Of a stretch of DNA of 41,004 nucleotides, positions 13,275-20,102 are shown piece after piece (the stretch's first letter is position 1; each line of letters starts with the position of its first letter). The stretch comes from Nitrososphaera sp. AFS (lineage in GTDB: Archaea > Thermoproteota > Nitrososphaeria > Nitrososphaerales > Nitrososphaeraceae). Under the pieces are notes generated by a model. That model made no database searches and had not been told where the DNA came from. It saw nothing but the letters and a program-made list of their open reading frames with translations. Both the position numbers and the translations under genes were made by a program. The stretch is taken from positions 1 through 41,004 of the forward strand of contig NZ_QURE01000019.1 of assembly GCF_009898475.1 (NCBI RefSeq), written 5' to 3'.

Positions 13275-13522
13275 CAGATTTTCACCCGTCTGTAAAAGAG
13301 ACACTGGTCATACTCAGATCAGGCGGCATGGTAGATTAAAAAGATGAGTGCACCTTTATAAAACGTAACTGTATGCGCGCCAGATAAAGATTTTCGCTAT
13401 TTTCCCAGATCATACGTAGCATCAATATTCCGTACTCAAGATCTTCTTACGAAAAGGTATAATAATTAGATGAGAATAGAGTTTGAATATTGTCACAACA
13501 GAAATAGTGACAACTAGTAAAA

Positions 13523-14182
13523 ATGAATCATATGGTCATGCATGGCGATGTTGATAGTAATAGGGAGGACAATACAAATGACAAAACCGGTGAAAAGCGG
13601 GGCCAAGCCAATCCCGAATTTGCCACCGAACAGTTGACACAAATGCTAAACATTTGGTCAGATATTAGTCGTTTGCCAACTGTAGGACCATTCTTTGCTT
13701 ATTCACAGTGTTCCAGATCTGATCTTCAGGATATTCTTGATCTTTGGAAAACCTTTCTCGAGTTTCAGATACACGTAAAGGAATTTTGGGCACAGATTAA
13801 TAATACATATACACATGCATTGGCAAAGGCTTCCGAGAAGGCACCAAAAGAGTATAGCTCAAAAAAAGACTTCGAGAACTTTAGAAAAATTGTGATAGAC
13901 ATTTTTGAGGAAGAGTTTACAGGCCTGTTTGATTCTAAGGATTACGCAATTTTGAATGGTACATTATTAAGGGATCAATATGACTCTGTGATGCATTTAC
14001 AGAAGCTTACGGAGAAACAATTTAAGGTACTTAATCTCCCTACCCGAAGTGAATTAGATTATCTATCTAAGGATATTCATGATTTGAAAAAAACTGTTCA
14101 TGACTTGAACAAAAATTTTCGTGACTTTGCCCTAAAGATAGGAGCTTTGAAACAAAATGAATCCGGAGATATATCTAAGTAG
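13523..14182 (+). CDS. phaE: PHA synthase subunit PhaE (class III)
   Basis: A 219-residue accessory subunit that pairs with PhaC in class III polyhydroxyalkanoate synthases. It has a charged, low-complexity N-terminus. A helical core follows (FATEQLTQMLNIWSDISRLP; ILDLWKTFLEFQIHVKEFW; about residues 33-95). LNLPTRSELDYLSKDIHDLK (about 171-190) is the conserved PhaE motif: N-L/V-P-T-R-x-E-L/v-D. A C-terminal coiled coil (HDLKKTVHDLNKNFRDF) ends the chain. It overlaps phaC by 26 nt, so the two are translated together. Confidence 0.92.
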   Translation: MNHMVMHGDVDSNREDNTNDKTGEKRGQANPEFATEQLTQMLNIWSDISRLPTVGPFFAYSQCSRSDLQDILDLWKTFLEFQIHVKEFWAQINNTYTHALAKASEKAPKEYSSKKDFENFRKIVIDIFEEEFTGLFDSKDYAILNGTLLRDQYDSVMHLQKLTEKQFKVLNLPTRSELDYLSKDIHDLKKTVHDLNKNFRDFALKIGALKQNESGDISK

Positions 14183-15281
14183 CACTTCAGAAAAGAAATT
14201 AGGGAAAGACCACGAGATAAGCGGCGAAACAGATACCAACTCAATATTAAAGGAAATTGGAGAATTAACTCGCAAGCTCGAAAAAACCAGAGTGGTGCTC
14301 CATAATGCAGGAGCTGTAGAGGTTGGAAGTACCCCTCATGAAATAGTAGATGAGACAAGTTTGTACAGACTTCTGCACTATCGGCCGATGGTGAGCAAGA
14401 CTGCCAAGACACCGATTTTGTTTGTATACGCATTGATAAACAGGTCTTATATCCTCGATTTGCAACGGAACAAGAGTTGGATTCGTAGCTTGCTAAGCCA
14501 AGGCTTCGATATTTATTTGATAGATTGGAAGACACCGACTCAAGCAGACAAGTATGTTTCATTTGATGATTACATAAACAATTACATCGATGATTGCGTG
14601 GAATTTGTTAGAAGAAAGAACTCCGTAGACAAGGTAACGCTACACGGATATTGTATGGGTGCAACGATGTCTGCGATTTATTGTTCACTTCATGAGGACA
14701 AAGTTAGAAATTTGGCCACCATAGCACCGGTTATTGACTCAAATCAAGATACCACGGTACTTGGGAATTTTTCTAGACATTTCGAGGCAGATAGAATGCT
14801 CAGTTCGATAGGCAATTTACCTCCAGAACAACTTTACGCATTATTCTCCACTTTGAAACCATTTAAGCAGGGAGTAAACAAGTATTTCAATTTAGTTGAA
14901 AATATTGATAATGATGAATTTGTTCAGAACTTTCTCCGTGTAGAAAAGTGGCTGTACGATACCCCACCAATCGCCGGCGAGACGTTTAGACAGTGGATCG
15001 TTGACATTTACCAAAAGAATCTCTTGGTGGCAAACGAAATGAAGATAGGAAGCGATGTCATAGATCTTTCTAGGATTAAACTTCCTGTATTAAATATAAT
15101 CGCAGAAGAGGATCATCTCGTGTCTCCGCAGTGCAGTGCACCATTGAATGATGTCGTATCCAGTCGTGACAAGAGACTAATGCGATTTCATACTGGGCAT
15201 GTCGGGCTTATCGCTAGCAGTTATTCCCAGAATAATGTCCTTCCTAAAGTAGGGCAGTGGATTAAAGCTCGATCACAGTGA
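14157..15281 (+). CDS. phaC: Class III PHA synthase catalytic subunit PhaC
   Basis: A 374-residue alpha/beta-hydrolase-fold synthase that polymerises hydroxyacyl-CoA on granule surfaces. The lipase-like box is GYCMG with nucleophile Cys166. The acid is Asp319 (in AEEDHLVSP) and the base His348 (in HTGHVGL). Upstream blocks LFVYALINRSYILDL and DIYLIDWKTPTQADKY are typical of PhaC. Length fits class III, smaller than class I. The ATG at 14157 lies within the phaE end; the first 45 residues are variable and charged. The enzyme gives this organism a carbon and reducing-power store. Confidence 0.96.
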   Translation: MNPEIYLSSTSEKKLGKDHEISGETDTNSILKEIGELTRKLEKTRVVLHNAGAVEVGSTPHEIVDETSLYRLLHYRPMVSKTAKTPILFVYALINRSYILDLQRNKSWIRSLLSQGFDIYLIDWKTPTQADKYVSFDDYINNYIDDCVEFVRRKNSVDKVTLHGYCMGATMSAIYCSLHEDKVRNLATIAPVIDSNQDTTVLGNFSRHFEADRMLSSIGNLPPEQLYALFSTLKPFKQGVNKYFNLVENIDNDEFVQNFLRVEKWLYDTPPIAGETFRQWIVDIYQKNLLVANEMKIGSDVIDLSRIKLPVLNIIAEEDHLVSPQCSAPLNDVVSSRDKRLMRFHTGHVGLIASSYSQNNVLPKVGQWIKARSQ

Positions 15282-15664
15282 GCCTTCTTAGTCATTAAAC
15301 TTTCTAGATTACGATGGAAGGATCTCACCTCCAATCAAACGAGTTAGCATTTAGTATTTGAGGTATGTATACAAGTTGAAAGTCCATATCTACTTGTATA
15401 CATGTCCTAATTCACATCCTAATTTTGTACAGTGATCTTAGTAATCATAATCAATCGAAATCCTCAATTCTCCTATTCTGTACTGTATTATTCTCCATTA
15501 ATGCACTTTCTTTTAGTACTATGAATTCAAATGATGCGCTACAATCAGTAAAATACCCGCTTCAGGATACCATGTGCTGTAGTCAGAATAGACAACAACA
15601 GACTTTCCATTCATTAAAGCGATCTAGGTAGGCAGATTATATTTGGACTGCCTATTCCAATTAT
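15282..15664. other. Intergenic region between convergent phaC and AbrB-like genes
   Basis: 382 bp with a perfect 12-bp inverted repeat at 15365-15403. A plus-strand frame at 15425-15631 (TTG start, 68 codons) has a hydrophobic stretch but no homology I recognise and no clear promoter; I do not call it. Confidence 0.5.
15365..15403. repeat. Perfect 12-bp inverted repeat after phaC
   Basis: ATGTATACAAGT (15365-15376) and ACTTGTATACAT (15392-15403) are exact reverse complements with a 15-nt spacer. The site lies 83 nt after the phaC stop and about 260 nt beyond the end of the AbrB-like gene. As an RNA it would form a 12-bp hairpin; as DNA it could bind a dimeric regulator. Confidence 0.7.
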
Positions 15665-15964
15665 TTAATGACTGTCTTTCCTTCTCCTAATAGGTATAAT
15701 GATCACTTGAACTAGGTCACCGTCTTCAATATTCAATGCTTGTCTTTCAGCTTCAGGGATAGAAATCCTGCCCCCACTTTGAACGGTAGTCTTAAACATT
15801 GCATTATAATATGTCAGGCCTTGAAGCGTGGTGAGAAAATTATGAATTGCATCCTGCTGAACTGCTGTATAATTTCTTATGAGATCTTTCTGAGCTGCAA
15901 CTCCTTTTTCGATAGCATCCCTAAAAATTCCCGCCGGTTCATCTCCACCGCCAGTGTTAGTCAT
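15665..15964 (-). CDS. Phasin-like/AbrB-SpoVT domain fusion protein
   Basis: A 99-residue protein with two parts. Residues about 10-55 form an amphipathic helix-rich segment (FRDAIEKGVAAQKDLIRNYT, QQDAIHNFLTTLQGLTYYN) like short phasins. Residues about 57-93 form a swapped-hairpin AbrB/SpoVT domain (TVQSGGRISIPEAERQALNI, EDGDLVQVIIIP). In haloarchaea a separate AbrB-type PhaR regulates phasin PhaP; here both features seem joined in one chain. Location next to phaEC supports a role on granules, in their gene control, or both. The phasin reading of the N-terminus is inference. Confidence 0.8.
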   Translation of the reverse strand: MTNTGGGDEPAGIFRDAIEKGVAAQKDLIRNYTAVQQDAIHNFLTTLQGLTYYNAMFKTTVQSGGRISIPEAERQALNIEDGDLVQVIIIPIRRRKDSH

Positions 15965-15990
15965 TGTCTACTTAGGGTTATATCCAGGAT

Positions 15991-16998
15991 TTATTTAATA
16001 TGATCCTCCCGAGTACGATTGGCTAAGAATTTTAGAACGGCTTGGTTAAACTCTGTAGGCTTTTCCACGAATGGACTGTGTCCGCAATCATTGATCACTA
16101 CAAGTTCTCCCCGGGGAACTAGTCTATAATCTTTCAAACATTGGATAGGTATCATGTTGTCATCTTTTCCCCAAACAAACATTGTCGGCATTAATATTTT
16201 TGAAAGTCGCTCATTAAGGGTCGGAGAGTCCCTCATTCCTAACAAAGTCGACATGAATGCGTACTTGGCATTTGGAAGTCTCATCCGATTCACGAAATCT
16301 GTGACTGTGTCCTCAGTGACAATACTAGGATTAAATGCCATATCCATGAACGCTTTAAGCGTGTTTTCTGGAGTAGGATAAAGTGCTGCCATAATATACT
16401 GATCAAGGACGTGAGTTGAAAATTGCATCAGCCCTGCTGGCGCGGCCAGAACCAGCTTGTCTACTCTTCTGCTAAATCGCATAGCAAATTCCATTGCCAC
16501 CCATCCACCAAAAGATGAACCTACAATGTTCAAGCTCTCGATGCTCAAATTGTCCAAGAAACCCTGTAGGAATGATATAAAGAAATCCAAAGTATATTCT
16601 ACTGTTGGTTTGTCACTGTAACCGAAACCGATTATGTCTGGGATTATTACCTTAAAATATTTGGATAGTTCCGGTACTACTGGCAACCATCTTTCGGCAG
16701 ATGCTCCTATGCCGTGCAACAAAAGTAATACTTGGGAGGTATCAGATATCTTTGGAACTTTATCACATTCTAAATATCTAATTCTGAAATCATTAATATT
16801 AGTCATCTTCATCGAAATGTCATCTTCTAACAACCAATCTACATTCGAATTTGACCATACATGGCTATTTAATTTCTTTTGAAGTAAAACTGAAATTTTT
16901 GGAAGGTTTATTGTTTCATTGGAACTTAAATGTGGAGTTAATAGTAAACCTCTTGAGAATAGAGTCGTCGTTGGCTTTAAATTAGTAGGTTGCTGCAA
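15991..16998 (-). CDS. Alpha/beta hydrolase
   Basis: A 335-residue serine hydrolase. The oxyanion motif is LLLLHGIGASAERW (HG at about residues 95-96) and the nucleophile Ser162 is in GSSFGG. The acid is Asp279 or Asp280 (WGKDDNMIP) and the base His307 (NDCGHSPFVEKP). The fold with a cap insertion (FMDMAFNPSIVTEDTVTDFV) resembles epoxide hydrolase/C-C hydrolase and PHA depolymerase-like enzymes. The first 60 residues are a variable extension. It lies 26 nt upstream of, and on the same strand as, the phasin/AbrB gene, so a PHA-related esterase role is possible but unproven. Confidence 0.9.
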   Translation of the reverse strand: MQQPTNLKPTTTLFSRGLLLTPHLSSNETINLPKISVLLQKKLNSHVWSNSNVDWLLEDDISMKMTNINDFRIRYLECDKVPKISDTSQVLLLLHGIGASAERWLPVVPELSKYFKVIIPDIIGFGYSDKPTVEYTLDFFISFLQGFLDNLSIESLNIVGSSFGGWVAMEFAMRFSRRVDKLVLAAPAGLMQFSTHVLDQYIMAALYPTPENTLKAFMDMAFNPSIVTEDTVTDFVNRMRLPNAKYAFMSTLLGMRDSPTLNERLSKILMPTMFVWGKDDNMIPIQCLKDYRLVPRGELVVINDCGHSPFVEKPTEFNQAVLKFLANRTREDHIK

Positions 16999-17041: not shown

Positions 17042-18178
17042 TCACTCGGTTCGAAGCTGCCTATCAAGTTCCTTAAGTAATGACTTTTGCGTATCGTTCA
17101 ACTTAACGGGAACTTTCATATTAATTCTAATTAGTTCGTCCCCTTTGCCATAACTACCATATTGAGGTAAACCTTTACCTTTGATCTTCAAAATTGCATT
17201 TGGCTGTGTTCCCGGTGGGATTTTCAATTTTTCACTATCATCCAGGGTAGGAATACGGACTTCGGTCCCTAACGCAAGATCTGTAAAGTTAAGATTGAGT
17301 ACGTAAAGAAGGTGACCATTTTCAAGCCTCTCAAAAAGCGGGTGTGGCTGAACATGAACTCTAACAAGTAGATCGCCTGGTGAGCCATTCGCAGATGGCT
17401 CGCCCTCACCTCTTACTTGTAGAGTGACTCCATCCTCCACACCAGCAGGAATCTCCAACTTTAATTTTTTATTCTTTCTAATTTTACCTGAGCCATCACA
17501 GACCCTGCACGGTTTGTCTATTATCTCCCCTTGTCCTTGACAAGTTTGACATGGTTCAAGAGAAACGAACGTTGAAAACCTATTCTGGCTATAAATGCGC
17601 CTTGTTTGTCCCTGTCCATTGCATACGTTGCACTTCCTAGGCTTGGTTCCAGGAGACGCCCCAGATCCTCCACAAGAGCTACATCGTTCTAGCTTTGGTA
17701 GCTCGATTTCATCTTTTTTACCCTTTAGTACTTCTTCTAAACTAAGCTCCACATCATAGAGTATATCACGTCCCTTTCTTCGTCCTCCGCCGAACCCAAA
17801 GCCAAATCCGAATGGATCACCAGCTTCGTTACCAAATCCTCCGGCGCCAGCACCTCTACCTCCAAAAATTTGTTCGAAGATGTCCCTGAAGCCCCCAAAT
17901 CCCATGTCTTTAAACACTTCATTGAAATTGGCTTCTGAACCACGGAAAACTTCCTCAGCTCCGACGTGACCATACATGTCATATCTCTTTCTTTTCTCGT
18001 CGTCTGACAAAACAGCATAAGCCTCTGAAATCTCTTTGAATTTTTCTTCAGCGCCATGTGTCTTATTTCTATCAGGATGATATTGTAACGCTAATTTTCT
18101 GTATGCGTTTTTGATTTCATCCTTACTTGCATTTCTTGATAACCCAAGTGTCTCATAATAATCGCGCTTGGTGCTCAT
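17042..18178 (-). CDS. dnaJ: Chaperone DnaJ (type I Hsp40)
   Basis: A 378-residue DnaJ with all type I parts. The J domain starts [16 protein letters not shown] and holds the HPD motif (LQYHPDRNK). A Gly/Phe-rich segment follows ([14 protein letters not shown]). Four zinc-binding CxxCxGxG repeats come next ([32 protein letters not shown]), then the two beta-barrel substrate domains. The ATG at 18178 is chosen because it directly precedes the J domain; a longer open frame to 18268 overlaps dnaK and adds an unlikely His-rich leader. Last gene of the grpE-dnaK-dnaJ operon. Confidence 0.95.
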
Positions 18179-18236
18179 GATGTAAAAATCCTGATGTATT
18201 TCGTCAAGGTTAAGGTTATGGCAGTAATAGCCATCA

Positions 18237-20102
18237 CTATTGTGGTGGTGGACCACCACCGCTAGCATTAGACGTTTGATCTGTGCTGGCCGTGGATGCT
18301 TCTTGAGTAGCGGATTCAGAAGGTTGACCGGGTGAACCTGGGGTAGCTCCTGCTGTCCGATAGACTTCCGTGCTAACCTCGCCTATCACATTTTTAAGTT
18401 CTTGGGTTTTTGCCTTCATATTGTCTATATCATTGCTGGAGATTGCATCCTTAAGCTGCTGTGCACTGTTGTTAATCTTTTCAGCCTGCTCTGGTTTTAT
18501 TTTATCTTTTAGATCCTGTTTTACTAATTTGTCAGCAGCATAAACCAGATTGTCTGCCTCATTTTTAACAGCTTCTACTCTCTTCTTCTGGTCAGCCTCG
18601 GCGAATTGTTCAGACTCTTTCTTTAACTTTTCAATTTCCTCTTTAGATAGCTTGGTATTTGCAGTGATTGTTATCTTTGCCTCCTTGCTCGTAGCCATAT
18701 CTTTGGCACTGACATTAAGGATACCGTTAGCATCTATGTCGAATGTGACTTCAATTTGAGGCACACCCCGCGGCGCCGGCGGTATGCCTGAAAGATTAAA
18801 CATCCCTAGAGAAACACAATCAGCGGCCATGGCCCTTTCGCCTTGAACCACATGTATAGTAACCGCGGTCTGATAGTCAGCAGCAGTAGTGAACACCTTG
18901 CTCTTTTTAGTTGGGATGGTTGTATTGCGATCTATTAATGACTCTTTAAGTCCACCCAGAACTTCTACTCCTAATGTCAATGGGGTAACGTCAACCAGAA
19001 GTATGTCTGTGGATACATCGCCTGAGATGATAGCCCCTTGTATTGCTGCTCCTAGTGCAACTGCTTCCATCGGATCGACTCCCCTTTCTGGTTCTTTACC
19101 CATGACCGCTGCCACAAATTGCCTAACTATCGGCATTCTCGTTGGACCACCGATAAGTATTATCTTGTCAACATCGTTCGGACTCAATTTTGCGTCTTGA
19201 AGCGCCTGCATCATTGGTGCTTTGCACCGTTCTACTATAGGCCTCAATAATTCCTCTAACTTTGAACGAGTCAAGTTATGAACTAGATTCTTTGGTCCTG
19301 TGGCCGAATCGTATGCTAGAAACGGCAAATTGATTTCGGTGGTGATTACGTTTGATAACTCAATTTTAGCTTTCTCGGCAGCTTCTCGTATTCTCATCAT
19401 GGCAGCCTTGTCGTTTCTCACATCTAACCCAGATTGTGTCCTGAACTCCTGAAGTACATACTCAACTAGGGCATTATCCATATCTGTTCCACCAAGTTGG
19501 GTATCGCCGGAGGTGCTCTTGACCTGGAACACCCCACCGCCCATCTCCATAAGCGTAACATCGAGGGTTCCGCCTCCAAAATCGAACACCAAGATCTTCA
19601 GGTCCTTCTGTACCTTATCTAGACCATATGCTAAGGAAGCCGCTGTAGGCTCGTTAATTATCCTAACTACCTGTAACCCCGCTATCTCGCCAGCATCCTT
19701 GGTAGCTTGCCTCTGATTATCGTTAAAGTATGCTGGTGCAGTAATAACGGCTCTATCAACCGTGTCGCCGAGAAATGCTTCGGCATCCCTCTTTATTTTT
19801 TGCAGTATGAAAGATGAAATTTGCTGGGGAGTATACTCCTTGCCAAATATTCTGTATTTAAAATCTGTTCCCATTTTTCGCTTCGCACCAATTACGGTGC
19901 CTTCTGGATTTGAAATCATTTGCCTCTTGGCAGGTTCTCCAACTAGAAGTTGACCATCCTTAGTGAATGCTACAACCGAAGGAAAGGCTTTTCCTCCTAC
20001 AGAAGTCCCTTCTGCTGCCTGTATAATTGAAGGTTTTCCTCCTATCATTGCAGCAGCTGCAGAATTACTAGTTCCAAGATCGATTCCTATAATTTTTCCC
20101 AA
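18237..20102 (-). CDS. dnaK: Chaperone DnaK (Hsp70)
   Basis: A 621-residue Hsp70. The nucleotide-binding domain begins [17 protein letters not shown] and contains [19 protein letters not shown] and [14 protein letters not shown] (signatures 1-3). The linker ([16 protein letters not shown]) leads to the substrate-binding domain and a helical lid. The end is a low-complexity Ser/Thr/Pro/Gly tail with GGGPPPQ in place of a bacterial EEV-like end. The start is TTG at 20102, 2 nt after the grpE stop. Hsp70 in Thaumarchaeota is generally viewed as acquired from bacteria. Confidence 0.97.

Follow-up and report, generated by a model that had tools for sequence, protein, structure and literature searches.

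Ammonia-oxidizing archaea are known to store carbon from their synthase genes and from granule imaging (PMC11082331, PMC4084955, PMC7554672), and we found no named PHA regulator of these organisms in the literature that we searched. A 41,004-nucleotide stretch (hereafter the window) of the genome of Nitrososphaera sp. AFS, a soil ammonia oxidizer of the Nitrososphaeraceae, carries the synthase genes phaE and phaC, and facing them a small gene for a 99-residue protein. This arrangement raises the question of whether that protein controls PHA storage, and to which family it belongs. The original prediction held that it is a phasin fused to an AbrB regulator, a single molecule coating granules and binding DNA, and that haloarchaea divide the same work between two separate proteins, PhaP and PhaR.

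A class III PHA synthase locus

The predicted layout, with phaE-phaC facing a gene for a 99-residue protein with an amphipathic segment and an AbrB domain, and an esterase gene on the strand of the latter, was confirmed, the esterase being an alpha/beta hydrolase (Table 1). The products of the two plus-strand genes, which overlap by 26 nt, both score above the curated cut-offs of the families that together mark a class III PHA synthase, TIGR01836 and PF09712. The phaE product falls under the cut-off of TIGR01834, so we regard it as a divergent PhaE. PhaC is 80-94% identical in congeners across residues 1-374, and the GYCMG nucleophile motif can be read in its sequence. Many relatives encode further PhaC-like proteins (G001, G003, G006, G016, G017, G024 and others); these extra frames are longer, at about 440-545 aa, and fall short of the class III cut-off.

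The minus strand carries dnaK, dnaJ, the hydrolase gene and the gene for the 99-residue protein. The dnaJ and dnaK genes (17042-20102) are directly upstream of the other two, and they also adjoin the hydrolase-phaR pair in at least four congeners (L034-L037); none was seen beside phaR in other genera.

Table 1 Features of the locus (positions in the window, except in the last row, where they refer to the named loci).
Feature	Position	Strand	Evidence or remark
phaE promoter element ACGAAAAGGTATAATAA, TATA-like (predicted)	13449..13465	+	Nearly invariant 17-nt block in five congeners
Inverted repeat TTGTCAC-N10-GTGACAA	13490..13513	+	Near expected phaE transcription start
phaE, PHA synthase class III subunit E (219 aa)	13523..14182	+	PF09712, 50.9 bits (cut-off 25.7)
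phaC, class III PHA synthase catalytic subunit (374 aa)	14157..15281	+	TIGR01836, 460 bits (cut-off 365.3)
phaR homologue (99 aa), N-terminal amphipathic helix and C-terminal AbrB domain	15665..15964	-	Identity to Haladaptatus PhaR; profile-profile match
AbrB swapped-hairpin domain, residues 55-92	15689..15802	-	TIGR01439 (below cut-off), PDB profile matches, Foldseek, signature
Amphipathic helix, residues 10-52, putative granule- or protein-contact segment	15809..15937	-	AlphaFold, helical-face test, N-terminal profile match
Predicted phaR TATA box (ATTAAATAAA)	15990..15999	-	~31 nt before ATG; overlaps hydrolase stop codon
Alpha/beta hydrolase (273 aa from ATG 16812), candidate intracellular PHA depolymerase/oligomer hydrolase	15991..16812	-	Abhydrolase_1
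f9 PhaR with apparent N-terminal duplication	L082:4869-5279; L084:4839-5261; L087:4980-5444; L090:4986-5399

Relationship of the 99-residue protein to haloarchaeal PhaR

Haloarchaeal PhaR is known from Haloferax mediterranei, where it was reportedly described by Cai et al. in 2015, also under the name GAP12. The window protein is 36% identical to Haladaptatus PhaR over 90 aa, nearly its whole length, and a profile-profile comparison of thaumarchaeal with haloarchaeal PhaR sets aligned 87 columns with 99.9% probability (E = 9.3e-31). After removal of the AbrB domain, the N-terminal parts still matched at 57.9% probability (E = 1e-4), against a maximum of 4.9% in 30 column-shuffled controls. These two matches, full-length and N-terminal only, indicate that both parts are conserved between the 99-residue protein and PhaR. 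A tblastn search against 72,556 plasmids returned four haloarchaeal AbrB-type proteins and nothing else, two of them (H45 and H46) annotated as phaR of phaR-phaP-phaE-phaC clusters. Judged by sequence, the 99-residue protein is a member of the known PhaR family and not a new kind of fusion. We consider it the thaumarchaeal orthologue of haloarchaeal PhaR, probably working likewise as a granule-titrated repressor, and put the probability of this reading at roughly 70%.

The family's AbrB part carries the signature FKTTVQSGGRISIPEAERxALxIxxGDLVQVxxxPI. The family profile picks up AbrB-fold PDB chains (2glw, E = 1.3e-10), and the top Foldseek matches to the AlphaFold model are mostly AbrB/MazE/SpoVT-type chains, none significant alone. 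The C-terminal AbrB-like domain of an archaeal PhaR is therefore present, with TIGR01439 alone staying below its cut-off (22.8 bits versus 28.3). The structure prediction proposed for this protein gave a single helix at residues 10-52 within a model of low overall confidence (mean pLDDT 66); the AbrB part was poorly modeled, an expected outcome since this domain adopts an interleaved dimeric fold.

The claim that the N-terminal segment is amphipathic and conserved also held. Its conserved hydrophobic positions share a single face of the helix (p = 0.0018), and single-sequence helical moments exceeded those of shuffles in all ten homologues tested. Conservation, as the mean frequency of the commonest residue, is 0.55 in the N-terminal part versus 0.88 in the AbrB part. 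In family f9, which has small genomes, this segment appears to be tandemly duplicated (self-alignment p from 0 to 0.004 in four genomes); the f9 proteins are about 137-141 aa long, that of L087 reaching 155 aa from its earliest start.

According to reviews, haloarchaeal PhaR is found on granules, has a C-terminal AbrB domain and represses the phaRP promoter in a manner that depends on this domain; the activity of that promoter responds to PHA, and PhaP is a further protein, additional to PhaR (PMC7137286, PMC9049629, PMC10948481). The contrast drawn with haloarchaea consequently falls away, since their PhaR already combines an N-terminal segment with an AbrB domain, sits on granules and represses its own expression (PMC7137286, PMC9049629). 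For the same reasons, the proposed autoregulatory sensor, in which the unbound protein represses as long as there are no granules, is the already published haloarchaeal model. The haloarchaeal proteins share with the window protein this two-part layout, a similar length (100-110 aa versus 99 aa), the signature FKTxVQSGGRISIP and co-occurrence with class III PhaEC.

The same logic, a repressor titrated by polymer, has been proposed for bacterial PhaR (PMC9049629). We treat this regulator of PHB accumulation as an analogue, and its families PF07879 and PF05233 gave no match to the window protein at E <= 1.

Co-occurrence, gene order and alternative explanations

Among 300 Nitrososphaeria genomes that were 80% complete or more, we detected PhaR in 194 and PhaC in 203; 191 contain both and 94 neither. 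PhaC thus accompanies PhaR in 191 of 194 genomes, PhaR is absent from 94 of the 97 that lack PhaC, and the association has a Fisher p of 5e-60, uncorrected for shared ancestry. The original prediction would have been abandoned had relatives lacked co-occurrence with phaEC, and on this point the counts agree with it. A nearer sample of 101 genomes gave the same picture (PhaR in 60, PhaC in 60/60 of these), and in 79 Halobacteria PhaR was present in all 35 PhaC-bearing genomes and occurred without PhaC in only two. Like archaeal PhaR elsewhere, the window protein is therefore found with a class III PHA synthase. Gene order is conserved as well: of the 60 PhaR-bearing relatives, 42 have phaR and phaC no more than 6 kb apart and convergent in every case, the two genes of the other 18 being farther apart or on separate contigs.

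A few PhaC-bearing lineages have no detectable PhaR, which argues that PhaR is not indispensable. In genus g11 (G015, G022, G027, G032, G037), PhaC exceeds the family cut-off and PhaR was undetected, in three genomes also by profile; PhaR may have been lost there, may have diverged strongly, or another regulator may be at work. In three g20 genomes (G161, G169, G261) the stretch matching PhaR is interrupted by one TAG codon, which could stem from a sequencing error or a disrupted gene, or mean that translation starts later. The halobacterial locus L072 has an atypical phaC, with phaR not nearby but elsewhere in the same genome.

Three features set the ammonia oxidizers apart from haloarchaea: undetected PhaP, convergent gene order and a linked hydrolase, our candidate depolymerase. 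Whereas haloarchaeal phaR heads a phaR-phaP-phaE-phaC cluster, phaR of the window converges on phaC, and the window does not contain the phaJ-phaR-phaP-phaE-phaC arrangement in which phaR and phaP are co-transcribed upstream of phaEC. PhaP was also undetected in the window genome, unlike in haloarchaeal PhaR systems. The haloarchaeal PhaP profile, which detected its target in 7/7 haloarchaeal controls, found none in 20 ammonia-oxidizer genomes save one marginal match (E = 0.009). This difference, together with the amphipathic N-terminus, would suit a regulator with a phasin attached, a single protein in place of haloarchaeal PhaP and PhaR. The window protein resembles PhaP in being small, helical and tied to PHA genes, yet it has no detectable homology to it: the profile of its family did not match haloarchaeal PhaP, and it showed no sequence match to the phasin families PhaP, Phasin and Phasin_2. 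Its N-terminal part instead matches that of haloarchaeal PhaR, and the same two-part layout occurs in haloarchaea that also possess PhaP. We rejected a PhaP-PhaR fusion on the lack of PhaP profile similarity and of phasin family matches; the predicted phasin gives way to a full-length PhaR homologue, and it is improbable that one phasin-regulator here replaces the two haloarchaeal proteins.

A helix attached to a DNA-binding domain could also serve mainly to tether granules to the nucleoid for segregation, as bacterial PhaM and PhaF do, in which case DNA binding by the AbrB domain would be largely sequence-independent. We found no conserved operator, and AbrB-type histone-like archaeal proteins (5itm, 5itj) are among the structural matches, both of which would agree with such a role; the haloarchaeal homologue, however, reportedly acts on a specific promoter, which it represses (PMC9049629), and we think tethering unlikely to be the main function. 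AbrB domains are common, and three more PF04014 matches exceed the cut-off in this genome, so that an unrelated AbrB-type regulator or antitoxin might lie beside phaEC by chance. That the protein almost always accompanies PhaC in two phyla, holds a conserved position with no toxin gene adjacent and bears the family-specific signature makes such a coincidence very hard to credit. Returning to PhaR orthology, we entertain as a tentative and rather doubtful extension that in ammonia oxidizers PhaR acts both as regulator and as the sole small protein dedicated to coating granules, closing the feedback loop alone, its phasin-like segment even duplicated in f9 (probably Nitrosopumilaceae).

As PhaR, the protein is a specific and nearly universal candidate regulator of PHA storage in ammonia oxidizers, and our analysis adds a probable phaR promoter and a linked candidate depolymerase. 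With it, PhaR is known from a second archaeal phylum besides that of the Haloarchaea, and the thaumarchaeal cases show that PhaR does not depend on PhaP.

Control elements, proposed circuit and the linked hydrolase

Unlike its haloarchaeal counterpart, phaR of the window has its own TATA box just ahead of the start codon. A TTAAATAAA-type box is conserved at the corresponding place upstream of phaR in most aligned genera of the family, and is kept also in genera without a hydrolase gene upstream. From this conserved box and its distance from the ATG we infer that phaR has its own promoter and a leaderless or near-leaderless mRNA. The predicted phaE promoter element ACGAAAAGGTATAATAA occurs once in the window. 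Downstream of it, the repeat at 13490-13513 is the sole copy in the genome, intact in the sister genome and degenerate in three others, and is a weak candidate for a phaE operator. An operator common to the phaE and phaR promoters was rejected, as this repeat is unique in the genome and not intact at phaR. Sequences ahead of phaR share no inverted repeat from one genus to another, and our search for an operator conserved outside the closest genomes found none.

A second repeat, at 15365-15403, had been put forward as a binding site. It is indeed a strong inverted repeat, with 15-nt arms that are 93% complementary and an RNA fold z of -4.3. As an operator it was rejected: it sits in the 383-bp spacer between the convergent 3' ends of phaC and phaR, and is a promoter element of neither gene. 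It is also unconserved, its core TGTATACA being absent from 5/5 congeners and mere remnants persisting in the closest sister, whose PhaR is 94% identical. The spacer itself (15282-15664) measures about 380 bp here, about 850 bp in the sister and about 40-100 bp in four other congeners, indicating that it grew in this small lineage.

By homology with haloarchaeal PhaR, a dimeric AbrB domain would bind the phaR promoter, and perhaps that of phaE, keeping expression low while polymer is absent. Once PhaEC starts making PHA, the amphipathic helix would let PhaR move to the granule, where it may contact the polymer surface or granule proteins; the free pool would fall, repression would be lifted, and bound PhaR would help shape the granule. 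The linked hydrolase would probably degrade the polymer or its oligomers. In this scheme we infer PhaR dimerization, DNA binding and granule binding, the direction of regulation and the substrate of the hydrolase. Our best guess for ammonia oxidizers, drawn from the haloarchaeal case, is that free PhaR represses and granule-bound PhaR does not.

The hydrolase, described as an esterase, probably starts at ATG 16812 and not at TTG 16998, because its sister locus L034 has stop codons in frame upstream of that ATG; homology in other congeners likewise begins near this ATG. It has an intact Ser-Asp-His triad, with GxSxG, Asp and His conserved in relatives. No PHA depolymerase of ammonia-oxidizing archaea was named in the literature searched, and NF050089 (intracellular short-chain PHA depolymerase) gave 95.5 bits against a cut-off of 300. 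Its closest PDB matches are C-C bond hydrolases, with the PHB depolymerase 8ynv at E = 5.3e-19. These scores single out no one substrate, and the enzyme is a candidate PHA depolymerase of these archaea.

The gene shares a locus with phaR in 69 of 75 loci, a count in which some entries are overlapping fetches of one place, and in 40 of 45 PhaR loci of a less redundant set. Among these 40, it is directly upstream on the same strand in 33, adjacent on the opposite strand in 4 and farther away on the same strand in 3, where it adjoins phaC instead. This linkage, repeatedly lost and re-established, suggests that the enzyme takes part in PHA turnover. Across the order, the hydrolase gene shows linkage to phaR, or else to phaC.
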